Positions 107-29,770 of a stretch of 37,550 bases of DNA are shown here, in pieces; position 1 is the stretch's first letter; each line of letters starts with the position of its first letter. Below the pieces are notes generated by a model that was given only the letters and a program-made list of their open reading frames with translations, made no database searches and was not told the origin of the DNA. The stretch is from Methylocapsa sp. S129. GTDB lineage: Bacteria; Pseudomonadota; Alphaproteobacteria; Rhizobiales; Beijerinckiaceae. The DNA is taken from positions 1 to 37,550 of the forward strand of contig NZ_LMUI01000009.1 of assembly GCF_009765995.1 (NCBI RefSeq), given 5' to 3'. A program made the position numbers and the translations under genes.

Positions 107-3070
107 TTACTCGGCCGCCTCTTCGCGTCGCTTGCGTTCCGGCCTTCGCGCCAGCACGGCGCGCAGATATTCGCCGGTATGGCTGCGTTTGTTGCGCGCG
201 ATGTCTTCGGGCGTGCCCATGGCGACGACTTCGCCGCCGCCGTCGCCCCCTTCCGGACCCATGTCGATGATCCAGTCGGCGGTCTTCACCACTTCGAGAT
301 TGTGCTCGATCACCACCATCGAATTGCCCTGGTCGACGAGCTCGTGCAGCACTTCGAGCAATTTGGCGACGTCGTGGAAATGCAGACCGGTGGTCGGCTC
401 GTCAAGGATATAGAGCGTGCGCCCGGTCGAGCGGCGCGACAATTCCTTGGCGAGTTTGACGCGCTGAGCCTCGCCACCCGACAATGTGGTCGCCTGCTGG
501 CCGACCTTGACATAGCCGAGGCCGACCCGCACCAGCGTCTCCATCTTGTCGCGAATGGAGGGCACCGCCTTGAACAGCACGGCCGCCTCTTCAACCGTCA
601 TGTCGAGCACGTCGGCGATCGAGCGGTCGCGGTATTTCACCTCCAGCGTTTCGCGATCGTAACGCTTGCCCTTGCAGACATCGCAGGTGACATAGACGTC
701 GGGCAAAAAGTGCATTTCGATCTTGATGACGCCGTCGCCCTGGCACGCCTCGCAGCGCCCGCCTTTCACGTTGAACGAAAAGCGCCCGGCCTGATAGCCG
801 CGCGCCTTGGCTTCGGGCATGCCGGCGAACCATTCGCGCATCGGCGTGAAGGCGCCGGTATAGGTGGCGGGATTGGAGCGCGGCGTGCGGCCGATCGGCG
901 ACTGGTCGATGTCGATGACCTTGTCGAGTTGCTGCAATCCTTCGATGCGATCGTAAGGCGCGGGATGTTCGCTCGCGCCATTGAGATTGCGCGCCACCGC
1001 CTTATAGAGCGTGTCGATCGCCAGGGTCGATTTGCCGCCGCCGGAGACGCCGGTCACGCAAGTGAACAGGCCGAGCGGAATGGTTGCCGAAACGTCCTTC
1101 AGATTATTGCCGCGCGCGCCGACGATTTTGATCTCACGGCCCGGCTTGGCGGCGCGGCGGCGTGCGGGGGCGGGGATCGCGCGCGCGCCGGACAGATACT
1201 GGCCGGTCAGCGAATTGGGATTGGCGATGATCTCCGCCGGCGTGCCTTTGGCGACGATTTCGCCGCCGTGGATGCCGGCGCCGGGGCCGACATCGACGAC
1301 ATAATCGGCGGCGAGAATCGCATCTTCGTCGTGCTCGACGACGATCACGCTATTGCCGAGGCCGCGCAATCGCCGCAGCGTATCGAGCAGCCGCGCATTG
1401 TCGCGCTGATGCAGGCCGATCGACGGTTCGTCGAGCACATAGAGCACGCCGGTCAGGCCCGAGCCGATCTGCGAAGCGAGCCGGATGCGCTGGCTTTCGC
1501 CGCCCGACAGCGTGGCGGAGGCGCGCGCGAGCGTGAGATAGTCGAGGCCGACGTCGCGCAGGAAGGTCAGACGGTCGCCGATTTCCTTGAGGATGCGCTG
1601 GGCGATTTCGTTGCGCTTGGAATCGAGTTTCTCTGGCAGCCCGCGCGCCCAATCGACGGCGGCCTTCACCGACAGCAGGCTGACTTCGCCGATATGCTGG
1701 CCGTCGATTTTCACCGCCAGCGCTTCGGGCTTCAGGCGATAGCCTTTGCAGGCGGCGCAGGGCGTCGCGCTCATATAGCGCAAAATTTCCTCGCGCGACC
1801 ATTCGCTTTCCGTCTCGCGATAGCGGCGCTCGAGGTTTGTGACGACGCCTTCGAACGGCTTCTTCACTTCGTAAGAGCGCAAGCCGTCCTCATAGGCCAT
1901 ACGCACGTCTTCGTCGCCCGAGCCGTTGAGAATCACGTCGCGCGCTTTGGCCGGCAGTTCGGCCCAGGGGGCGTCGAGGCGGAATTTGTAATGGCGGCCG
2001 AGCGCCTCCAGCGTTTGGGCATAATAGGGCGAGGTCGATTTCGCCCAGGGCGCGATGGCGCCCTTGCGCAGGGTCAGGCGGCTGTCGGGAACGACAAGAT
2101 CGGGATCGACCTTCATCTGCGACCCGAGGCCGCCGCAGGTCGGGCAGGCGCCGAACGGATTGTTGAACGAGAACAGCCGCGGCTCGATCTCGGGAATCGT
2201 GAAGCCCGACACCGGACAAGCGAATTTCGAGGAGAACATGATGCGGCGCGGCTCGCCGCCTTCGGCGGGCGCATCGGCGAATTCGACGATCGCAATGCCG
2301 TCGGCGAGCTCCAGCGCGGTCTCGAAACTCTCGGCGAGCCGGCTCGCCATATCGGCGCGCACGATCAGGCGGTCGACCACCACGTCGATGTCGTGTTTGA
2401 ACTTCTTGTCGAGCGTCGGCGCGTCGGCGATCTCGTAGAACTCGCCGTCGATTTTCAGGCGCTGGAAGCCGCGCTTCATGAAATCGGCGATTTCCTTGCG
2501 ATACTCGCCCTTGCGGCCGCGAATGACCGGCGCGATTAGGAACAGCCGCGTGCGCTCAGGCAGCGCCAGCACGCGATCGACCATCTGCGAAATCGTCTGG
2601 CTCTCGATCGGCAGGCCGGTCGCCGGCGAATAGGGGATGCCGACGCGCGCCCAGAGCAGGCGCATGTAATCGTGGATTTCGGTGACGGTGCCGACCGTCG
2701 AGCGTGGATTCTTCGACGTCGTCTTCTGCTCGATGGCGATCGCCGGCGAAAGCCCGTCGATCTGGTCGACATCGGGCTTTTGCATCATTTCGAGGAACTG
2801 CCTGGCGTAGGCCGACAGCGACTCGACATAGCGGCGCTGGCCCTCGGCATAGATCGTATCGAAAGCGAGCGACGACTTGCCCGATCCCGACAGGCCGGTG
2901 AACACGACGAGCTTGTCGCGCGGGATCGTCAGATCGACGTTCTTCAGATTATGCTCGCGCGCGCCGCGCACTGTGATGGCGCGGCCGTCGAACAATCTTT
3001 CGACGGCGGTGACGACGGGCGCGGCGGACTTGACGCGCGCGGGCTTCTTAATGGGTTTGGGGCTCGCCAT
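107..3070 (-). CDS. uvrA: Excinuclease ABC subunit A (UvrA)
   Basis: UvrA is the damage-sensing ATPase of nucleotide excision repair; as a dimer it loads UvrB at distorted DNA in the cytoplasm. The product is 987 aa with the duplicated ABC layout: first Walker A (GLSGSGKS, about residues 59-66), CxxC zinc-binding clusters, first signature (SGGESQR) with LDEPSIGL, second Walker A (GVSGGGKS), the zinc finger starting CEAC and ending CDVC, and the second signature (SGGEAQR) with LDEPTTGL. I chose ATG 3070 because AAGG lies 5 nt upstream; a GTG at 3082 would add four residues. It is divergent from ssb, with an alphaproteobacterial LexA box between the two, so SOS control is likely. The family assignment is secure. 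Confidence 0.98.
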
Positions 3071-21465: not shown

Positions 21466-22728
21466 TCAGTTCGGCCGCAGAAGCACGTGTTTCTTGCGAC
21501 CGAACGAGAGCTTGACGACGCCCGCCGCGCCAAGCGCGTCGCGTCCGATGATCGCCCGCTCGTCGGCGACAACTTCGTCATTCACCCGGAGGCCGCCGCC
21601 GCGAATCTGTCGCCGCGCCTCGCCAGTCGAGGCGACAAGACCGGCGCGCACGAAGGCGGCGAGGACGCCGAGGCCGGCGTCAAATTCCGCGCCGGGCACG
21701 TCGACAGTCGGCAGGCTTTCGGCGAGCGCGCCCTCTTCAAAAGTGCGGCGGGCGGTTTCGGCGGCGCTCTGCGCGGCTTCCGCGCCGTGCAACAAGCCGG
21801 TCGCCTCGTTCGCCAGGATCTTCTTGGCTTCGTTGATCTCAGCCCCGCCAAGCGTTTCGAGCCGGCTGATTTCATCGAGCGGCAGCAGCGTGAACAGGCG
21901 CAGGAAGCGGCCGACGTCGCTATCTTCCGTGTTGCGCCAGAACTGCCAGTAATCGTAAGGCGACAGCAAAGCGGCGTCGAGCCAGATCGCGCCCGCCGCC
22001 GTCTTGCCCATTTTGGCGCCCGAGGCCGTGGTGATCAGCGGCGCGGTCAGGGCGAAGAGCTGCGCCGCGCCGAGCCGCCGCCCGAGTTCGACGCCCTGGA
22101 TGATGTTGCCCCACTGGTCCGAGCCGCCCATCTGCGCGGTGCAGCCATAGCGTCGATGCAGCTCGACGAAATCATAGGCCTGCAGGCACATGTAATTGAA
22201 TTCGAGGAAAGAGAGCTCCTGCTCCCGCGCCAGGCGCAACTTCACCGAATCCATCGCTAGCATGCGATTGACCGAGAGATGGCTGCCGATTTCGCGCAGG
22301 AATTCGATATAATTGAGCTTGGCGAGCCATTCGGCGTTATCCGGCATAATCGCGTCGGTCCCGCCTTCGCCAAAGGTCATGAAGCGCGAGAAAACTTTGC
22401 GAATCCCCGCCTTGTTGGCGTCGATCTGCGCGACCGTCAGCAGCTTGCGGGTCTGGTCCTTGCCGGAGGGGTCGCCGACCATGCTGGTGCCGCCGCCCAT
22501 CAACGCGATCGGCTTGCCGCCGCCCTTCTGCAGCCAATGCAGCATCATGATCGACACCAGATTGCCGATATGCAGCGATGGGGCGGTGCAATCATAGCCG
22601 ACATAAGCGATGAGAGAGCCCGACAGAGCCTTCTCATCCAAGGCCTCGAAATTCGAGCATTGGTGAATGAACCCGCGCTGCTGAAGCGTCGCGAGAAAAT
22701 CGGATCGCGGATGGAAAGCGTCGGTCAA
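21466..22728 (-). CDS. tyrS: Tyrosyl-tRNA synthetase
   Basis: TyrS charges tRNA-Tyr with tyrosine in the cytoplasm. This 420-aa class I enzyme has the HIGH-type motif HIGN (53-56, after YDCTAPSL), the tyrosine-pocket stretch [12 protein letters not shown] with GGSDQWGNI, the KMSKS-type loop AKMGKT, and a C-terminal S4 RNA-binding domain (about 355-410). It starts at TTG 22728, 8 nt after AAGGAA on the minus strand. The promoter, ribosome site and first codons have a diverged second copy about 1.3 kb away in front of the EamA gene. It converges on the AsmA-like gene. Confidence 0.97.
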
Positions 22729-22925
22729 AACTGCGGTTCCTTGCCAGAATTGGCCCGAGGTTTAGGGACACGGGCCCGGATATGCAATAAGCGTCGCGAA
22801 GCGACGGCGGGGCGGTATGAATGGCGGTTGGCGACGCGCGCCGGCTTTCAAACGGGACGGCCGGCCGCCGCCACAAAATCCGGCCGCGAAAATGTCGCCT
22901 TGATCGGCAACTTCACGAGGCCTGC
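22627..22925 (-). repeat. tyrS 5' region, copy 1 of a ~250-bp direct duplication
   Basis: The segment 22681-22790 matches 23995-24104 ungapped, with about 89 of 110 identical bases by hand count. Similarity fades on both sides: inward across tyrS codons to about 22627, outward in a block at about 22880-22925 that resembles 24124-24170 and overlaps the 3' end of the EamA gene. About 68 bp between the two blocks are present only in this copy, including a CGTCGC-GAA-GCGACG hairpin. Confidence 0.75.
22759..22787 (-). promoter_or_regulatory. Candidate tyrS promoter (copy 1)
   Basis: On the minus strand TTGCAT (22787-22782) and TAAACC (22764-22759) are separated by 17 nt. The match to sigma-70 consensus is modest (three of six each), but the same two hexamers and the same 17-nt spacing are retained in the diverged second copy at 24073-24101. 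That conservation supports function. The ribosome site AAGGAA lies between it and the TTG start. Confidence 0.45.
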
Positions 22926-23875
22926 GGCGCCGCGACCGATCTATGCTGGCCGTAGAAGATTTGAATTGCGGTCACGACGCCTGCGATCAACGTGATCATG
23001 CCGGTTATCTCGGCTGGCGTTGGCCATCGACTATGCGCCGCCAGTCCAACTATCGCGCCGAAGACGGCTTCCAGCACGATCAATTGCGCCGAGAGGGCCA
23101 CGGGCAGCCGCTGCGCGGCGATCGTCCAGGCCCACGCTCCGCCGACGGAAGCGAGGATCGCCAGCGAGGTTCCCCAGAGGTAGAGGGGAGCGGCGGTGGG
23201 CCACGCAAGGCCGAGGCGAGGAATCTCGAACACGTTCATTGCGAGGCCAATCGGTATGAAGACGAGCATTCCCAGACCGCCTCCGGCCATGATGAGCGCC
23301 GTCCAGACGCCAGCGTCCATATCCGGCCGTCTGGAGAGGGCGCTCTGGTTCAGCAGGCCGAACCACGTCCACAGCGCCACGGCCGCGATCGCGAGCGGAA
23401 TGCCCGATGCAAGCGAGCGCGTCGTCGCCATGCTCTCTGGATCGAAGGCGCTGCCGTTGATGAGCAGCAGCCCGACCGTCGCCAGCGCGAGCGGCAATGC
23501 GAGACGCCGCCAGGAAACCGTTCGCTGGCGCAGATTGCCGGCGATTGCGAGCGCCACCGGCGCCAATCCCAGGAACGCCGGGGCGATCACCGGACCGGCG
23601 AAGATAGCGGCTCCGACGACGGTGAGGAAATAAACGACATAGCCGATCAATCCCAGCCAGAACGCCATCAACCAGTCACGAGGCCTCAGGAAGCGGACGA
23701 TATCCATCTTGAATGCAAGAAAGCCGAGGCCCAGAAATCCCGAGATCAAGAACCGGAACAGGGCAAAATCGAAGATCGAATAGTCGCCGATCACGAAGGG
23801 CACGATGAAATTCAGGGACCATGCGAAAGCCGCGGACAGCGCCGCGACGATGCCGATCAGCATCGAATATTTCAT
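22913..23875 (-). CDS. EamA/DMT-superfamily transporter
   Basis: This is an integral membrane protein of 320 aa with about ten hydrophobic helices in two EamA repeats, for example the opening VAALSAAFAWSLNFIVPFVI and the late ALSAQLIVLEAVFGAIVGLA. EamA proteins export amino acids, metabolites or drugs (RhaT, YdcZ, RarD are relatives); the substrate here is unknown. ATG 23875 overlaps the TGA of a short leader ORF derived from tyrS, which probably provides its promoter and translational coupling; no good Shine-Dalgarno lies at the EamA start itself. The gene is bracketed by the two copies of the tyrS 5' duplication. Confidence 0.9.
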   Translation of the reverse strand: MKYSMLIGIVAALSAAFAWSLNFIVPFVIGDYSIFDFALFRFLISGFLGLGFLAFKMDIVRFLRPRDWLMAFWLGLIGYVVYFLTVVGAAIFAGPVIAPAFLGLAPVALAIAGNLRQRTVSWRRLALPLALATVGLLLINGSAFDPESMATTRSLASGIPLAIAAVALWTWFGLLNQSALSRRPDMDAGVWTALIMAGGGLGMLVFIPIGLAMNVFEIPRLGLAWPTAAPLYLWGTSLAILASVGGAWAWTIAAQRLPVALSAQLIVLEAVFGAIVGLAAHSRWPTPAEITGMITLIAGVVTAIQIFYGQHRSVAAPQAS

Positions 23876-24042
23876 GGAAAACCGATCGAGGCTCGCACGC
23901 GCCCTTTGGCCAACGGAATTACAACAGGGCTTTCCACTCGCGCGTTTTCGCCCAAGCTGGCAAGATTGGAGCCTCGATGAATGAAGTCGCGCCCCTGAAG
24001 CGTCGCCAGAAAATCGGATCGCCGGTGGAAGGGGGCGGTCAA
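23872..24042 (-). pseudogene. tyrS 5' fragment forming a 56-codon leader ORF for the EamA gene
   Basis: Reading from TTG 24042, the frame gives a 56-aa peptide beginning [16 protein letters not shown]. About 22 of the first 34 residues match the TyrS N-terminus, including FLATLQ, FIH and SN. The similarity ends before the HIGN motif, so this is no synthetase. The frame stays open, then stops at TGA 23874-23872, overlapping the EamA ATG (ATGA). An AAGGAA ribosome site is preserved upstream. It may be a decaying pseudogene or a leader that now controls EamA translation; I favour a co-opted promoter and leader. Confidence 0.75.
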
Positions 24043-24170
24043 AACGCGATTCCTTGGCCAGAATTGGCGCGAGGTTTAGGGGTAAGGGGCTGGATATGCA
24101 ACAAACAGCCTGCCCTCGCAAAGGTCGGCCGCGAACGGGCCGCTTTGGTTGGGAATTCAGCAAAGCCCAT
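23941..24170 (-). repeat. tyrS 5' region, copy 2 of the direct duplication
   Basis: This is the second copy, carrying the candidate promoter (TTGCAT-N17-TAAACC at 24101-24073), AAGGAA, TTG start and about 34 diverged codons. The outer block at 24124-24170 also resembles sequence upstream of tyrS at 22880-22925. Both copies point the same way. The copy takes up most of the gap between the EamA gene and the divergent GNAT gene. Confidence 0.75.
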
Positions 24171-24201
24171 GTGAATCGCCAATATCGTTAGGTTTGCAGC
24201 A

Positions 24202-24699
24202 ATGTCTTTGACTGTTCGCGCGATGCGCCAAGAGGATAGCCGAGCCTTTCTGGAAGTTCATCACGCGGCCGTGCGCGGCGTCGCCGCAAAGGACTATTCA
24301 TCAGCCGTGATAGAGGCCTGGGCGCCGCTGCCGCTTACTGACGCCGCCATAGAGGCGGTTCGATCAAACGCGGATGGCGAATATAGGCTGGTCGCGGAGA
24401 TGGATGGCCAGATCGTCGGCGTTGGCGCTCTTGCCGTCAGGACCGCGGAGCTGCGCGCCTGTTATGTCGCGCCAGAGGCGACCCGCCAAGGCGTCGGTTC
24501 GGCGCTGGTGCGGGAAATCGAGCGGGCGGCGCGCGAGCGAGATCTGACGTTTCTCGAACTGGACTCATCTGTAACGGCCGAACCGTTCTATAGGGCGCAC
24601 GGCTATGAAGTCCGCGGGCAGGGCGAGCATATCCTTGGCGCGGGACGATGCATGGCCTGCGTGAAGATGCGCAAGGATTTTGCGTTGCAGAAGAGCTGA
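24202..24699 (+). CDS. GNAT-family N-acetyltransferase
   Basis: This single-domain GNAT of 165 aa opens TVRAMRQEDSRAFLEVHHAAVRG, carries the central beta-strand segment ELRACYVAPEATRQGVGSAL with the acetyl-CoA loop RQGVGSA, and ends with FLELDSSVTAEPFYRAHGYE, the typical late GNAT strand. The substrate is unknown; YafP and similar small-molecule acetyltransferases are the nearest pattern. It starts a plus-strand run of accessory genes just after the divergent EamA/leader promoter. Confidence 0.88.
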   Translation: MSLTVRAMRQEDSRAFLEVHHAAVRGVAAKDYSSAVIEAWAPLPLTDAAIEAVRSNADGEYRLVAEMDGQIVGVGALAVRTAELRACYVAPEATRQGVGSALVREIERAARERDLTFLELDSSVTAEPFYRAHGYEVRGQGEHILGAGRCMACVKMRKDFALQKS

Positions 24700-24832
24700 T
24701 TTTCAGACATTTCACAAATCAATCGCAGAAAGCGTGTGAAAGTCGGTGGTTTGGCGATTTGCGTCTCCTTCCTGGCGATCGATCAGCGGGCCCCAGCCGC
24801 ACGCCAAACACACGCGTTTTGGAAGACAATCT

Positions 24833-25333
24833 ATGATGATAAGGCAAGAACGAGAGGAAGACTTTGCCGCTATCGGCCGTATCGTGGCTGAGGCCTTCGA
24901 GCATCTCTCCTATAGCAATCAACGGGAACAATTTCTGGTCGACGCTTTGCGAAGCGCCGGCGCTCTTACCGTGGCTCTCGTCGCCGACGACGACGGCGAA
25001 ATCGTCGGGCATATCGCTTTCTCGCCAGTCTGGATCGACGGCCGTTTTCAGGATTGGTATGGCTTGGGGCCCGTTGCCGTTCGTCCGGACCGGCAGGGAG
25101 CAGGGGTTGGGCAGGCGCTGGTTCGCGCGGGCCTTGCGCGCCTCGTCAATCTTCATGCGGGCGGCTGCATCGTGCTGGGCGCGCCCGCTTATTACAGCCG
25201 CTTCGGCTTCGCCGCGCATCCGCGACTGAGATTTGCAGGGGCGCCGCCCGAGCATTTCATGGCGCTGAAGTTTGGCAACGCTTTTCCCAGCGGAATCGTC
25301 ACGTATCACAGCGCGTTTTCCCAAGTGACTTAG
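24833..25333 (+). CDS. GNAT-family N-acetyltransferase (YhbS-like)
   Basis: This 166-aa acetyltransferase has the YhbS-type pattern: IRQEREEDFAAIGRIVAEAF, the VGHIAFSPV strand, LGPVAVRPDRQGAGVGQAL with the acetyl-CoA loop, and GAPAYYSRFGF near the end. The acceptor is unknown. GGAAG lies 7 nt before ATG 24833; an open frame upstream has no family similarity, so I trimmed it. The stop is only 20 nt before the AraC-type regulator, suggesting co-transcription. Confidence 0.88.
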   Translation: MMIRQEREEDFAAIGRIVAEAFEHLSYSNQREQFLVDALRSAGALTVALVADDDGEIVGHIAFSPVWIDGRFQDWYGLGPVAVRPDRQGAGVGQALVRAGLARLVNLHAGGCIVLGAPAYYSRFGFAAHPRLRFAGAPPEHFMALKFGNAFPSGIVTYHSAFSQVT

Positions 25334-25353
25334 TCCGTTCGGCAGAGTTTCCA

Positions 25354-26076
25354 ATGTCCATCGACAAGCAAAATGCATGGTCATATCGGCGGGGTCGGCC
25401 GGGTATCGCGCTTGAATATGCATTCTGGCGCGGCGCCGCCGCTCCTGATCTGGCGACGCATTTTCACGCCGACGCGCAATTGACGATCGTTCTGTCCGGA
25501 CGCCGCGCCTTTGATGTGGGATCAGCGCGCGTCACGGTTCTAGCCGGACAATGCCTCTATATTCCTGCGAAATCACCGCACCGGAGTTTGCCGCTCTTTT
25601 GCGAGGGAACGCGATGCCTCAATATTTATGCGGCAATCGGGGGCGTCGGCCGGTCTCCTATCGTGATCGATGTTCCCGAATTGGCGGGCGAAGATGACAA
25701 TGTCGATCGGGCGATGCTGCTGAGCATGATCGCGCCTCGATTGCAGGACGACGGGCGGCGAGGACAGCAGGAAAACGACGCGCCGCCTTGGCTTGGCATT
25801 CTTCCGGGCGGGTCTGAGGCGATCGGCGATATCGCTGCCCGCATCGGTTTGAGCCGGGAAGGGTTCAGCCGCAAGTTCGCTCGCGATGTCGGCATGGCGC
25901 CGCACGCCTGGTGCATCGTCAATCGGTTGAACGAGGCGCGCCGCCGCCTTCGGCAAGGCGATTCGATCGCGGGCCTCGCGGCGGAACTGGACTTTGCCGA
26001 TCAAAGCCATTTCGGCCGCCAGTTCCGGCGGGTGTTCGGCATAACGCCGCGCGCCTATCGCGAGGGCATGCGATAG
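25354..26076 (+). CDS. AraC-family transcriptional regulator
   Basis: This is a DNA-binding regulator of 240 aa. The N-terminal third is a cupin-like sensor (THFHADAQLTIVLSGRRAF, then GQCLYIPAKSPHRSL). The C-terminal ~90 residues hold two helix-turn-helix motifs, IGDIAARIGLSREGFSRKFA and IAGLAAELDFADQSHFGRQF, followed by the AraC signature FGITPRAYRE. The effector is unknown. I placed the start at ATG 25354, where the sensor domain begins; the open frame runs 300 nt further upstream inside the GNAT gene. It may control its GNAT neighbours or the following permease. Confidence 0.9.
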   Translation: MSIDKQNAWSYRRGRPGIALEYAFWRGAAAPDLATHFHADAQLTIVLSGRRAFDVGSARVTVLAGQCLYIPAKSPHRSLPLFCEGTRCLNIYAAIGGVGRSPIVIDVPELAGEDDNVDRAMLLSMIAPRLQDDGRRGQQENDAPPWLGILPGGSEAIGDIAARIGLSREGFSRKFARDVGMAPHAWCIVNRLNEARRRLRQGDSIAGLAAELDFADQSHFGRQFRRVFGITPRAYREGMR

Positions 26077-26141
26077 TCACAAACGTTCCAGATTCCAAGG
26101 CCTCCGAAGTTTAGCCTGTCCCTGTTCGGGGGCGGCTTCTT

Positions 26142-26903
26142 ATGGATGGCATGATGGCGTTTTTGTTGTTTCTGGCGGGCGTCGCGGGCGGAATCGTCAA
26201 TGCGGTCGCCGGCGGCGCAACCCTGATCACATTTCCGGCGATGCTGGCGGCCGGACTTCCGCCGATCGTCGCCAACGCCTCCAACGCCGTCGCGATCTCC
26301 CCCGGCCACCTGATCGCGGCGCTGGCGGACCGGGAAAAGCTGCCGCCCTTCGACCGCCTCCTCGCCCTGGCGCTCGCCACGGCGGTTGTCGGCGGAATCA
26401 TCGGCGCTCTACTGCTGCTGGCGCTGCCGGATCGTCTTTTCGTTCTGCCGGTTCCCGCGCTCATCGGCTTTGCGACATTGCTGTTCGCCTTCGCGCCGCA
26501 AATCCAGGCATGGGCGGAACGCCGGCGCAATGGCGCGGCGCCCTCCGCGGCCGGTGGTCTGGCCGCGCTGGCGGCGGCCTCCGTCTATGGCGGATTTTTC
26601 GGCGCGGGGCTCGGCGTAATCCTCACCGCCGTGCTTTCGATCGCCGCGCCGAATGATATTCGCAAGGTGAAGGCGTTGAAAAATCTACTCGCCACCGGGG
26701 TCAGCCTCGCCGCGATCGGGATCTTCGTCTTTCAGGGCGTCGTGCAATGGCGGGAGACTGCGTTCATGCTGGCGGGCGCGCTGCTCGGCGGCTATGCCGG
26801 CGGCCATCTCGTCCGAACGCTTCCCGCGAAAATTGTGCGCGGATTTGTGATTGTCGCGGGCGCCGCCATGACGATCGTCTATGCTCAACGCTATTGGCTA
26901 TGA
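26142..26903 (+). CDS. TauE/SafE-family sulfite/organosulfonate exporter-like permease
   Basis: This 253-aa integral membrane protein has about eight helices in two related halves, including the family signature GGATLITFPAMLAAGLPPIVANASNAV near the N-terminus and SVYGGFFGAGLGVILTAVLS opening the second half. Family members (TauE, SafE, YfcA) are proposed anion or organosulfur exporters; no sulfur genes lie nearby, so the substrate is open. ATG 26142 is the first start; ATG 26151 is possible. It ends 18 nt before the next gene. Confidence 0.88.
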   Translation: MDGMMAFLLFLAGVAGGIVNAVAGGATLITFPAMLAAGLPPIVANASNAVAISPGHLIAALADREKLPPFDRLLALALATAVVGGIIGALLLLALPDRLFVLPVPALIGFATLLFAFAPQIQAWAERRRNGAAPSAAGGLAALAAASVYGGFFGAGLGVILTAVLSIAAPNDIRKVKALKNLLATGVSLAAIGIFVFQGVVQWRETAFMLAGALLGGYAGGHLVRTLPAKIVRGFVIVAGAAMTIVYAQRYWL

Positions 26904-26921
26904 TTGCGAGGAACTACGGAC

Positions 26922-27269
26922 ATGGACGGCGAGCGGATCGTTTATTTGTTTTCTTACGGAACGCTGCAGCAGGAGAGCGTCCAGATCGCCTCGTTCGGCC
27001 GCCTGCTCAAGGGCGCCGATGACGCTCTCCTGGGCTACAAACAATCAATGATCGAAATTACCGACCCCGATGTCATCAGGAAAAGCGGCAAGAATTTCCA
27101 TCCGATCGTCGTGGCGACCGATAATCCCCGCGATGAAGTGCCCGGCAAGGTTTTCGAGATTACGGAGGCCGAGCTTGCCGCCGCCGACGCCTATGAAGTT
27201 TCCGACTACAAGCGCGTCTCGGCGCCTTTGAAGTCGGGCGTCGACGCCTGGGTATATGTCAGGGCATAG
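26922..27269 (+). CDS. Gamma-glutamylcyclotransferase-family protein (YtfP-like)
   Basis: This small cytoplasmic protein of 115 aa has the GGCT fold. The substrate loop YLFSYGTLQ lies at residues 8-16, and the catalytic-type glutamate is in DAYEVSDY near the C-terminus. Characterised relatives release 5-oxoproline from gamma-glutamyl compounds; the activity of bacterial YtfP-like members is poorly known. GAGGA precedes ATG 26922 by 9 nt. It lies 18 nt after the permease and 18 nt before the DUF2442 gene, so the three may form one transcript. Confidence 0.87.
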   Translation: MDGERIVYLFSYGTLQQESVQIASFGRLLKGADDALLGYKQSMIEITDPDVIRKSGKNFHPIVVATDNPRDEVPGKVFEITEAELAAADAYEVSDYKRVSAPLKSGVDAWVYVRA

Positions 27270-27287
27270 GCCCAGTGGAGGGTATCC

Positions 27288-27695
27288 ATGGTTGAACTAA
27301 CGGACGCCCGGATTGATAAAACGATGGAGCGCGGCAGGATCGCGCGGGAAACTGAACCTCGGGCCGCTTCCGCTCGCTACGATAGGCAGCTTGGCCGCGT
27401 TATCGTCGATTTGACCAATGGCTGCACCTTCGCTTTCCCGCCGCGTCTGGCGCAGGGATTGGAATCGGCAACGGACGATCAACTCGCCGAAATCGAAATT
27501 CTCGGGGCCGGCTATGGCCTGCATTGGGAAGCGCTGAATGCCGATCTTTCGATTCCCGGCCTGCTCGCGGGCATCTTCGGCACCCGAACATACATGGCCC
27601 GACGCGCTGGGCAGGCGACGTCGCCGGCGAAAGTGGCCGCGGCGCGGGCCAATGGCTCCAAAGGCGGCCGCCCGCGTAAATCTGCGAACGGTTGA
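27288..27695 (+). CDS. DUF2442 domain-containing protein
   Basis: This is a 135-aa protein of unknown function. The DUF2442 core is visible in VIVDLTNGCTFAFPPRLAQGL followed by the AGYGLHWEALNADLSIPGLLAGI block. The C-terminal tail, ANGSKGGRPRK, is basic and AT-hook-like, hinting at nucleic-acid contact. DUF2442 genes often pair with a DUF4160 gene in a toxin-antitoxin-like arrangement; no DUF4160 is visible here. It could be an orphan antitoxin-like protein, but that is inference. Confidence 0.8.
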   Translation: MVELTDARIDKTMERGRIARETEPRAASARYDRQLGRVIVDLTNGCTFAFPPRLAQGLESATDDQLAEIEILGAGYGLHWEALNADLSIPGLLAGIFGTRTYMARRAGQATSPAKVAAARANGSKGGRPRKSANG

Positions 27696-27760
27696 AACGA
27701 GCAATCCCGTCGCGGAACGGCGCCTGTTCAACTGGCTCGCAGCCGTCACTTTCGCTATAG

Positions 27761-28753
<993 letters not shown>

Positions 28754-28789
28754 GTCCGCCGTGAAAGCGGTTTATAGACAAGAGGCACA

Positions 28790-29770
28790 ATGGCGAACCG
28801 GCCGAGCGAAGACGATCTGATCGCCCGTTTCTTCGCGCCCATTGCAGGGCCCGAAGGCCTCGGCCTGCGCGACGATGCGGCTTTGCTGACGCCGCCCGCC
28901 GGATCGGATCTCGTCCTCACCAAGGATGCGCTTGTCGCCGGCGTGCATTTCTTCGCCGATGACCCGCCCGCCGCGATCGCCTGCAAGGCGTTGCGCGTCA
29001 ATCTTTCCGATCTTGCGGCCAAAGGCGCCGAGCCCGTCGGTTTCCTGCTCGCGCTCGCGTTGCCAGGCGATTGGACCGCTGATTGGCTTGGCGCCTTCGC
29101 GCGAGGGCTTGGCGAGGATGCGGCGACCTATCGCTGTCCTTTGTTCGGCGGCGATACGGTCAAGACGCCGGGGCCGCTGATGGTGTCGATCACGGCGCTT
29201 GGCCGGGTGATAAGCGGGCGCATGGTCGCGCGCGCCGGGGTCAAGCCCGGCGATGTCCTCTATGTCAGCGGCACGATCGGCGACGCGGCGCTTGGCCTCA
29301 AGCTGCGGCTCGGCGGCGGGCCGCCGCTGGGCGCCGTGCATCGCGATTTCCTGCTCGATCGCTATCTGCTTCCTCAGCCGCGCCAGAAACTGGCGCCGGT
29401 GCTGGGCGAATTCGCGCATGGTGGTATGGACGTTTCGGACGGATTTGTCGGCGATCTCACGAAAATGCTTGGAGTCAGTGGCGTCTCGGCCGAGGTCGAG
29501 CTTGTAAAATTGCCGCTGTCCGCCGCCGCTCATGCCGCAATCGCGCTTGATCCTGCTTTATTTGAGATTGCGGCGACTGGCGGCGACGATTATGAAATCC
29601 TCGCGTCGGTGGCGCCGCAAAAGGCCGCCGCCTTCGAAGCGGGGGCGGCCAAGGCCGGCGTCGCGGTCACGCGGATCGGGCGGGCGCTCGCAGGCGCCGG
29701 GCCGCCGCGGTTTTTGGGCCGCGACGGCGTCGCTGTCGCGTTCGAGCGTGGCGCCTTCAGCCATTTCTAG
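28790..29770 (+). CDS. thiL: Thiamine-monophosphate kinase
   Basis: ThiL phosphorylates thiamine monophosphate to the active cofactor thiamine diphosphate. The 326-aa protein has the Mg-ATP and substrate motifs: GLRDDAALL, TKDALVAGVHF, LRVNLSDLAAKGAEP, FGGDTV, MDVSDGFVGDL and TGGDDYEIL. AGAGGC precedes ATG 28790. In many alphaproteobacteria thiL directly follows nusB; here it lies near 28.8 kb with other genes between. The next gene begins 16 nt downstream. Confidence 0.97.
   Translation: MANRPSEDDLIARFFAPIAGPEGLGLRDDAALLTPPAGSDLVLTKDALVAGVHFFADDPPAAIACKALRVNLSDLAAKGAEPVGFLLALALPGDWTADWLGAFARGLGEDAATYRCPLFGGDTVKTPGPLMVSITALGRVISGRMVARAGVKPGDVLYVSGTIGDAALGLKLRLGGGPPLGAVHRDFLLDRYLLPQPRQKLAPVLGEFAHGGMDVSDGFVGDLTKMLGVSGVSAEVELVKLPLSAAAHAAIALDPALFEIAATGGDDYEILASVAPQKAAAFEAGAAKAGVAVTRIGRALAGAGPPRFLGRDGVAVAFERGAFSHF

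Follow-up and report, generated by a model that had tools for sequence, protein, structure and literature searches.

A probable case of promoter capture by duplication: the tyrS start region repeated upstream of an apparently foreign transporter gene in Methylocapsa sp. S129

The most prominent feature of this locus is that the 5′ end of tyrS is present twice, with one copy on either side of eamA, a gene for a DMT-family transporter. The reading that we favor, which rests on sequence comparison, is promoter capture by duplication, in which a copy of the tyrS-type promoter probably now drives eamA. A little under half of the weight we place on this reading goes to a coupled version, in which a 56-codon leader would be translated and ribosomes would reinitiate at eamA. 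We regard capture of transcription as likely, and coupling as plausible and reasonable to infer.

Extent and origin of the repeat

All features described here lie on the minus strand of the window, by which we mean the whole 37,550-nucleotide stretch of DNA that was analyzed. Along this strand, a copy of the tyrS start (24155 to ∼23935) is followed by ∼60 nt of unrelated DNA, by eamA (23875–22913), and by a second copy that leads into the intact tyrS (22910 to 21466). The tyrS gene itself (21466–22728), an essential housekeeping gene, encodes a tyrosine–tRNA ligase (TIGR00234, 344 bits against a cut-off of 113.8) and has a TTG start preceded by AAGGA at 22742–22738. The two copies align over 163 nt, with a local alignment score of 92, whereas 200 dinucleotide shuffles never exceeded 19.5, and their identity is 83% over 140 nt and lower in the repeat flanks. 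No third convincing copy was found in the 6.87 Mb genome, where a search gave seven matches at E ≤ 1, the five besides the pair being at E = 0.146 or worse.

Similarity extends over 62 nt 5′ of the TTG and resumes, beyond a stretch in which the copies differ in length by ∼70 nt, in a 44-nt spacer common to both copies (24155–24112 and 22910–22867; 30/44 identical, ungapped), which none of 1,000 shuffles equaled. The spacer of the downstream copy starts directly behind the eamA stop, and ∼76 nt separate its end from the promoter block, compared with ∼7 nt in the upstream copy. The repeat therefore spans the region from the eamA stop to approximately codon 36 of tyrS. It is only ∼220–290 bp in size and contains a conserved promoter-like pair, a ribosome site, the start codon, and ∼36 tyrS codons. 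The duplication beside eamA reported in the first-pass annotation is thus real, and larger than first described, since it includes the promoter region and the 44-nt spacer.

The resident tyrS is the closest relative of the leader (83%, E = 8 × 10⁻³⁴). Codon 26 is AAT (Asn) in both copies and Asp in 30 of 30 relatives; this shared Asn places the duplication in this lineage or a close relative. A distant donor was rejected on both counts. When 248 family genomes, including this one, were searched with the leader and three candidates were scored per genome, eight others matched at E ≤ 1 × 10⁻⁴, the best at E = 5 × 10⁻⁸. Against the tyrS starts of seven congeners the leader scored 16–45.5, compared with 92 against its own tyrS. 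Nor was any partial tyrS start of comparable strength found in the 1.1–1.4 kb upstream of 30 other tyrS loci, where the best scores were 10.5–18; two of these (L056 and L075) lay slightly above the maximum of 20 shuffles and are taken as chance. As the copy in Methylocapsa sp. S129 lies 1.3 kb upstream of tyrS, the locus with 1.1 kb of flank (L026) is a weaker control.

The junction with DNA unlike tyrS falls near 23935, and leader codons 37–56 are not tyrS-like. Several sources for this tail were considered and set aside. Descent from tyrS was rejected by alignment; the region 24105–28790 gave a score of 13, not above shuffles (p = 0.29); and the rest of the genome held no convincing match (ten other matches at E ≤ 5, the best at E = 0.033). 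The native upstream DNA of eamA gave weak similarity only, between the last 24 nt and three Ensifer loci (p = 0.05–0.09), and in a comparison of 85 nt with 14 loci no score exceeded the highest among 200 shuffles. A search of 24105–24201 for the remains of an outer eamA was negative (score 10; shuffle mean 10.9).

Divergence is uneven along the repeat. Between −62 and codon 16, a core region, 16/110 sites differ between the copies, compared with 37/104 in the repeat flanks (Fisher p = 0.0004), for segments picked after the alignment had been viewed; for leader-lineage changes alone the contrast is 3/45 against 9/54 and is not significant (p = 0.22). The contrast perhaps reflects use of the promoter and start in both copies, and gene conversion would also produce it.

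A rhizobial-type eamA at a variable site

The eamA gene reads intact across 320 codons, and its product scores 46.5 bits against PF00892, above the gathering cut-off of 28.2. Its start, as first placed, is shared with most homologs: it is a Met at one column in 4/4 aligned sequences, and among 66 homologous loci, 53 matched from residue 1, with ATG in 50, GTG in one, and GTC in two. Counts of Shine-Dalgarno and ATGA motifs given below refer to those 50 loci; the other 16 were excluded, 13 because their match began at a later residue and 3 because they have GTG or GTC.

Only 1 of 11 genomes of the genus carries eamA (E ≤ 1 × 10⁻²⁰), and the tyrS–thiL neighborhoods of the congeners are without it, so eamA is new to this promoter. 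Few other genomes have a relative: 13 of 247 within the family (E ≤ 1 × 10⁻³⁰; 34%–44% identity) and 4 of 396 within the order (E ≤ 1 × 10⁻⁴⁵; three of them at 56%–58% identity). A single-sequence scan of genome contigs returned no relative; an alignment-based profile search of named genomes gave the 66 loci, at 39%–73% identity, many of them in Rhizobium and Ensifer and the best (73%) in Ensifer. Among plasmids, 59 records matched, the best of them, at 70%, from a Rhizobium rhododendri plasmid. Judged by this distribution, eamA is foreign to the genus, an acquired gene of rhizobial type. DNA resembling tyrS or the leader was found in none of the flanks of up to 3 kb of the 66 loci (60 with ∼3 kb on both sides), and in none of three annotated plasmid records with eamA relatives.

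Within the genus, the region between tyrS and thiL is a variable insertion site. In congeners L031, L033, and L034, tyrS stands back to back with a divergent thiL at a distance of 90–370 bp. In three further loci, inserts of 2.8–4.4 kb of other genes lie between the two (L032, 3726–6494; L035, 3636–8045; L037, 732–3953), and in Methylocapsa sp. S129 the distance is ∼6 kb (22728–28790 of the window). No thiL match was found within the 10 kb examined of L036, and tyrS was not found in 3 of the 11 genus genomes at E ≤ 1 × 10⁻⁶⁰ (G002, G005, and G007).

Beyond the repeat, the insert at 24202–28753 contains, in addition to an AraC-type regulator and a prolyl aminopeptidase, two frames similar to GNAT acetyltransferases (for the second, the matches are only weak), two small frames with no NCBIfam match, and a membrane protein that we take to be TauE/SafE-like. 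The AraC-type frame (25054–26076, listed from a TTG) overlaps the GNAT-like frame at 24746–25333; judged by eye, its true start is probably near 25360.

The leader frame and its signals

The leader (23872–24042) is a frame of 56 codons that opens on the TTG at 24042. It was first described as a copy of the tyrS N terminus, and both its coordinates and the identity of 22/34 residues to TyrS are confirmed; codons 1 to ∼36 are tyrS derived (to ∼23935), and similarity fades beyond. Its stop, TGA at 23874–23872, and the eamA ATG at 23875–23873 together form an ATGA overlap of the two frames, also as first described.

The pattern of substitution does not support preservation of the encoded peptide. 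Over codons 2–34, the leader and tyrS differ at 25 nucleotides; by outgroup comparison, 12 of these fall to the leader lineage and 8 to tyrS, with 5 left unassigned. The leader-lineage differences are distributed 4, 6, and 2 over codon positions 1, 2, and 3, and 11/12 lie in codons with a changed residue; those of tyrS are distributed 1, 2, and 5 (p = 0.06 for the contrast). Eighteen residues are conserved in at least 80% of 30 relatives; 10 of them are retained by the leader and 16 by tyrS. The synonymous bias that the first-pass annotation proposed to look for is thus absent in this genome, the only one with the arrangement, with 10/12 leader-lineage differences at positions 1 or 2, and purifying selection on the leader peptide is not supported. 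The peptide looks unconstrained, so that only the act of translation could matter.

The suggestion that selection has kept the frame open likewise finds no backing. When neutral decay was simulated with 12 to 25 changes, the tyrS part stayed open in 45%–66% of runs, and shuffling left the tail open in 42% of cases; by their product the whole frame would be open by chance in approximately a fifth to a quarter of cases. Allowing one in three for the right phase gives ∼0.06–0.09 for the whole arrangement, which is suggestive at most as evidence against chance. An open frame in the right phase must end at ATGA, because eamA begins with ATGA, and ATGA is also the eamA start in 23/50 relatives, including the Ensifer loci L082, L083, and L098. 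We note that no stop interrupts the eamA frame upstream as far as 24163, such that, of the three minus-strand frames, two run through the leader to 23875 without a stop; openness therefore tells little. Upstream frames that end on the eamA ATGA occur in the same three Ensifer loci, with 71 codons in L083 (∼2789–3004, Ensifer sp. IC3342), 24 in L082, and only 3 in L098, and are not conserved.

The promoter-like pair TTGCAT-N17-TAAACC is identical in the leader copy (24101–24096 and 24078–24073) and in front of tyrS (22787–22782 and 22764–22759). By eye, the N17 spacing recurs in six of seven congener tyrS loci, L036 being the one without it; four of the six have TTGCAT and two TTGCGC, and the −10 part starts with TAA in all six. 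A strict sigma-70 scan of 22600–24300, which is insensitive, found no promoter and missed even this conserved pair, so identification of the promoter rests on conservation. A second copy of a putative resident promoter, with a 5′ gene fragment, is therefore present directly upstream of eamA. This bears out one part of the claim that a housekeeping promoter and leader had been captured, namely that the tyrS start region was duplicated before an apparently acquired transporter gene with its promoter-like pair unchanged; selection on the frame, the other part, is not borne out.

The contrast in ribosome sites drawn by the first-pass annotation also stands. The leader keeps AAGGA at 24055–24051, with AGGA 8 nt before its TTG (9 nt before that of tyrS), and upstream of eamA no core Shine-Dalgarno 4-mer lies in reach, only GATC-type pairing. 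Such a 4-mer is present in 43/50 ATG-start relatives, compared with a shuffle rate of 0.23 for the window stretch; since 7/50 are also without one, its absence at eamA is not remarkable alone. Two terminator-like sites were found on the minus strand, both inside eamA and none before it, and no Rfam family reached its gathering score in 22600–24400.

At the level of RNA, the fold of the whole leader is no better than that of shuffles (z = −0.33). One perfect 10-bp stem pairs leader codons 22–25 (23978–23969) with 23894–23885, 10–19 nt upstream of the eamA start, and two leader-lineage changes, in codons 23 and 24, complete it. By chance, such a stem occurs anywhere with P = 0.0445 and touching the start region with P = 0.014 (2,000 shuffles each), and 7% of the 374 real window stretches examined contain one as long. 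Having been spotted after the fact, the stem is no more than a lead. For the start region of eamA, predicted openness (0.44–0.47) is about background (0.40, SD 0.08). It is improbable, in our estimate, that the decaying tyrS fragment evolved a stem gate through which eamA would start only once a ribosome had read through the leader, in place of the lost Shine-Dalgarno sequence.

Alternative explanations and comparison with known systems

In the reading that we favor, a rhizobial-type eamA would have been acquired beside tyrS, and the segment that begins at the eamA stop and takes in the promoter, ribosome site, and opening ∼36 codons of tyrS would have been duplicated, so that a second copy came to sit directly upstream of eamA. 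Two routes fit and are the simplest. In one, the unit eamA–spacer–promoter–tyrS start would have been duplicated in tandem and the outer eamA then lost; in the other, a circle bearing eamA and the repeat segment would have integrated by a single crossover. The eamA gene would then be transcribed from the tyrS-type promoter. In the coupled version, the truncated tyrS start would additionally be translated as a throw-away leader, with ribosomes stopping on the eamA start and reinitiating there.

Overlapping with this reading, as its uncoupled part, is a version in which the tyrS promoter drives eamA, eamA starts independently, and translation of the leader is irrelevant. We hold this to be possible, if only tentatively. 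The unconstrained leader peptide, a start region of background openness, and the 7/50 relatives that also have no core Shine-Dalgarno 4-mer are in its favor, and it draws further support from the weakening of reinitiation on Shine-Dalgarno removal described in PMC6728339. The kept ribosome site and start of the leader speak for translation instead, as does a leader stop placed on the eamA start, the geometry described for reinitiation in the same source. The missing Shine-Dalgarno sequence at eamA cuts both ways with respect to coupling. We consider it rather unlikely that the upstream copy is an inert scar, a partial tyrS left by duplication or by homology-assisted integration, in which case eamA would be barely expressed or expressed from another site, and the leader frame and ATGA would be a coincidence. 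Leader codons free of amino-acid constraint (10/12 changes at positions 1 or 2; 10/18 against 16/18 residues kept), a chance openness of 0.45–0.66 and 0.42, an ATGA shared with 23/50 relatives, the three Ensifer loci among them, and an ordinary fold (z = −0.33) are all consistent with such a scar. It sits less well with a core better conserved than its flanks (p = 0.0004), promoter-like hexamers that are identical beside a kept ribosome site, an eamA intact over 320 codons, and the finding of no other eamA promoter by the insensitive scan.

A regulatory leader peptide, that is, an attenuator borrowed from tyrS that responds to tyrosine or to the level of TyrRS, would suit the tyrS origin of the frame and the 10-bp stem that connects it with the eamA start region. 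The 56 residues of the leader, however, include no tyrosine, no Rfam family was recognized at gathering score in 22600–24400, the fold is ordinary at z = −0.33, and both terminator-like sites lie inside eamA rather than before it. We regard this explanation as very improbable.

Promoter capture by duplication thus remains the reading to set against known systems. The EamA/DMT transporters of Rhizobium, Ensifer, and others belong to the same protein family and mostly share the start position, but DNA like tyrS or the leader is present in the fetched flanks of 0/66 of their loci. For the junction, PMC6728339 describes ATGA and TGATG pairs as common in prokaryotes, reports termination-reinitiation coupling for most of the pairs that it tested in two species, and finds that removal of the Shine-Dalgarno sequence substantially lowered reinitiation. 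The eamA locus has the same 4-nt stop/start overlap of co-directed frames; it differs from those pairs in that the upstream frame is truncated and unconstrained and no Shine-Dalgarno sequence precedes the eamA start. A Shine-Dalgarno sequence near the downstream start is common and helpful in reinitiation but not strictly required, and its absence at eamA, given the effect of its removal, speaks against efficient coupling. The locus offers a clean setting in which to ask whether a gene with no ribosome site of its own can receive ribosomes from a truncated frame that is under no constraint.

Capture of promoters by acquired genes through duplication has been described in experiments (PMC11111574, with reference to Anderson and Roth 1978 and Li and Bock 2019). 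There, as apparently here, an acquired or silent gene is joined to a resident promoter by a duplication without long homology; those cases come from selection experiments, whereas the present one is an old natural locus. A limited literature search found no natural or tyrS-derived example of promoter capture by duplication. The Cit+ phenotype of E. coli offers the nearest parallel. There, an rnk–citG duplication set the rnk promoter and a truncated fusion frame before a complete citT (PMC5918244), and in both systems a duplication places a resident promoter and a truncated frame in front of a complete transporter gene. The Cit+ duplication arose in an experiment and its expression was tested, whereas the eamA locus is read from its sequence. 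In addition, the copies at the eamA locus have diverged (83% over 140 nt), the repeat is only ∼220–290 bp, and there is no second transporter copy. Considered together, these comparisons suggest that the eamA locus looks like a natural example of the already known capture of promoters by duplication, described so far from selection experiments; an old natural case that keeps the repeat, the truncated donor, and the captured transporter would help to explain how acquired genes come to be expressed in nature.
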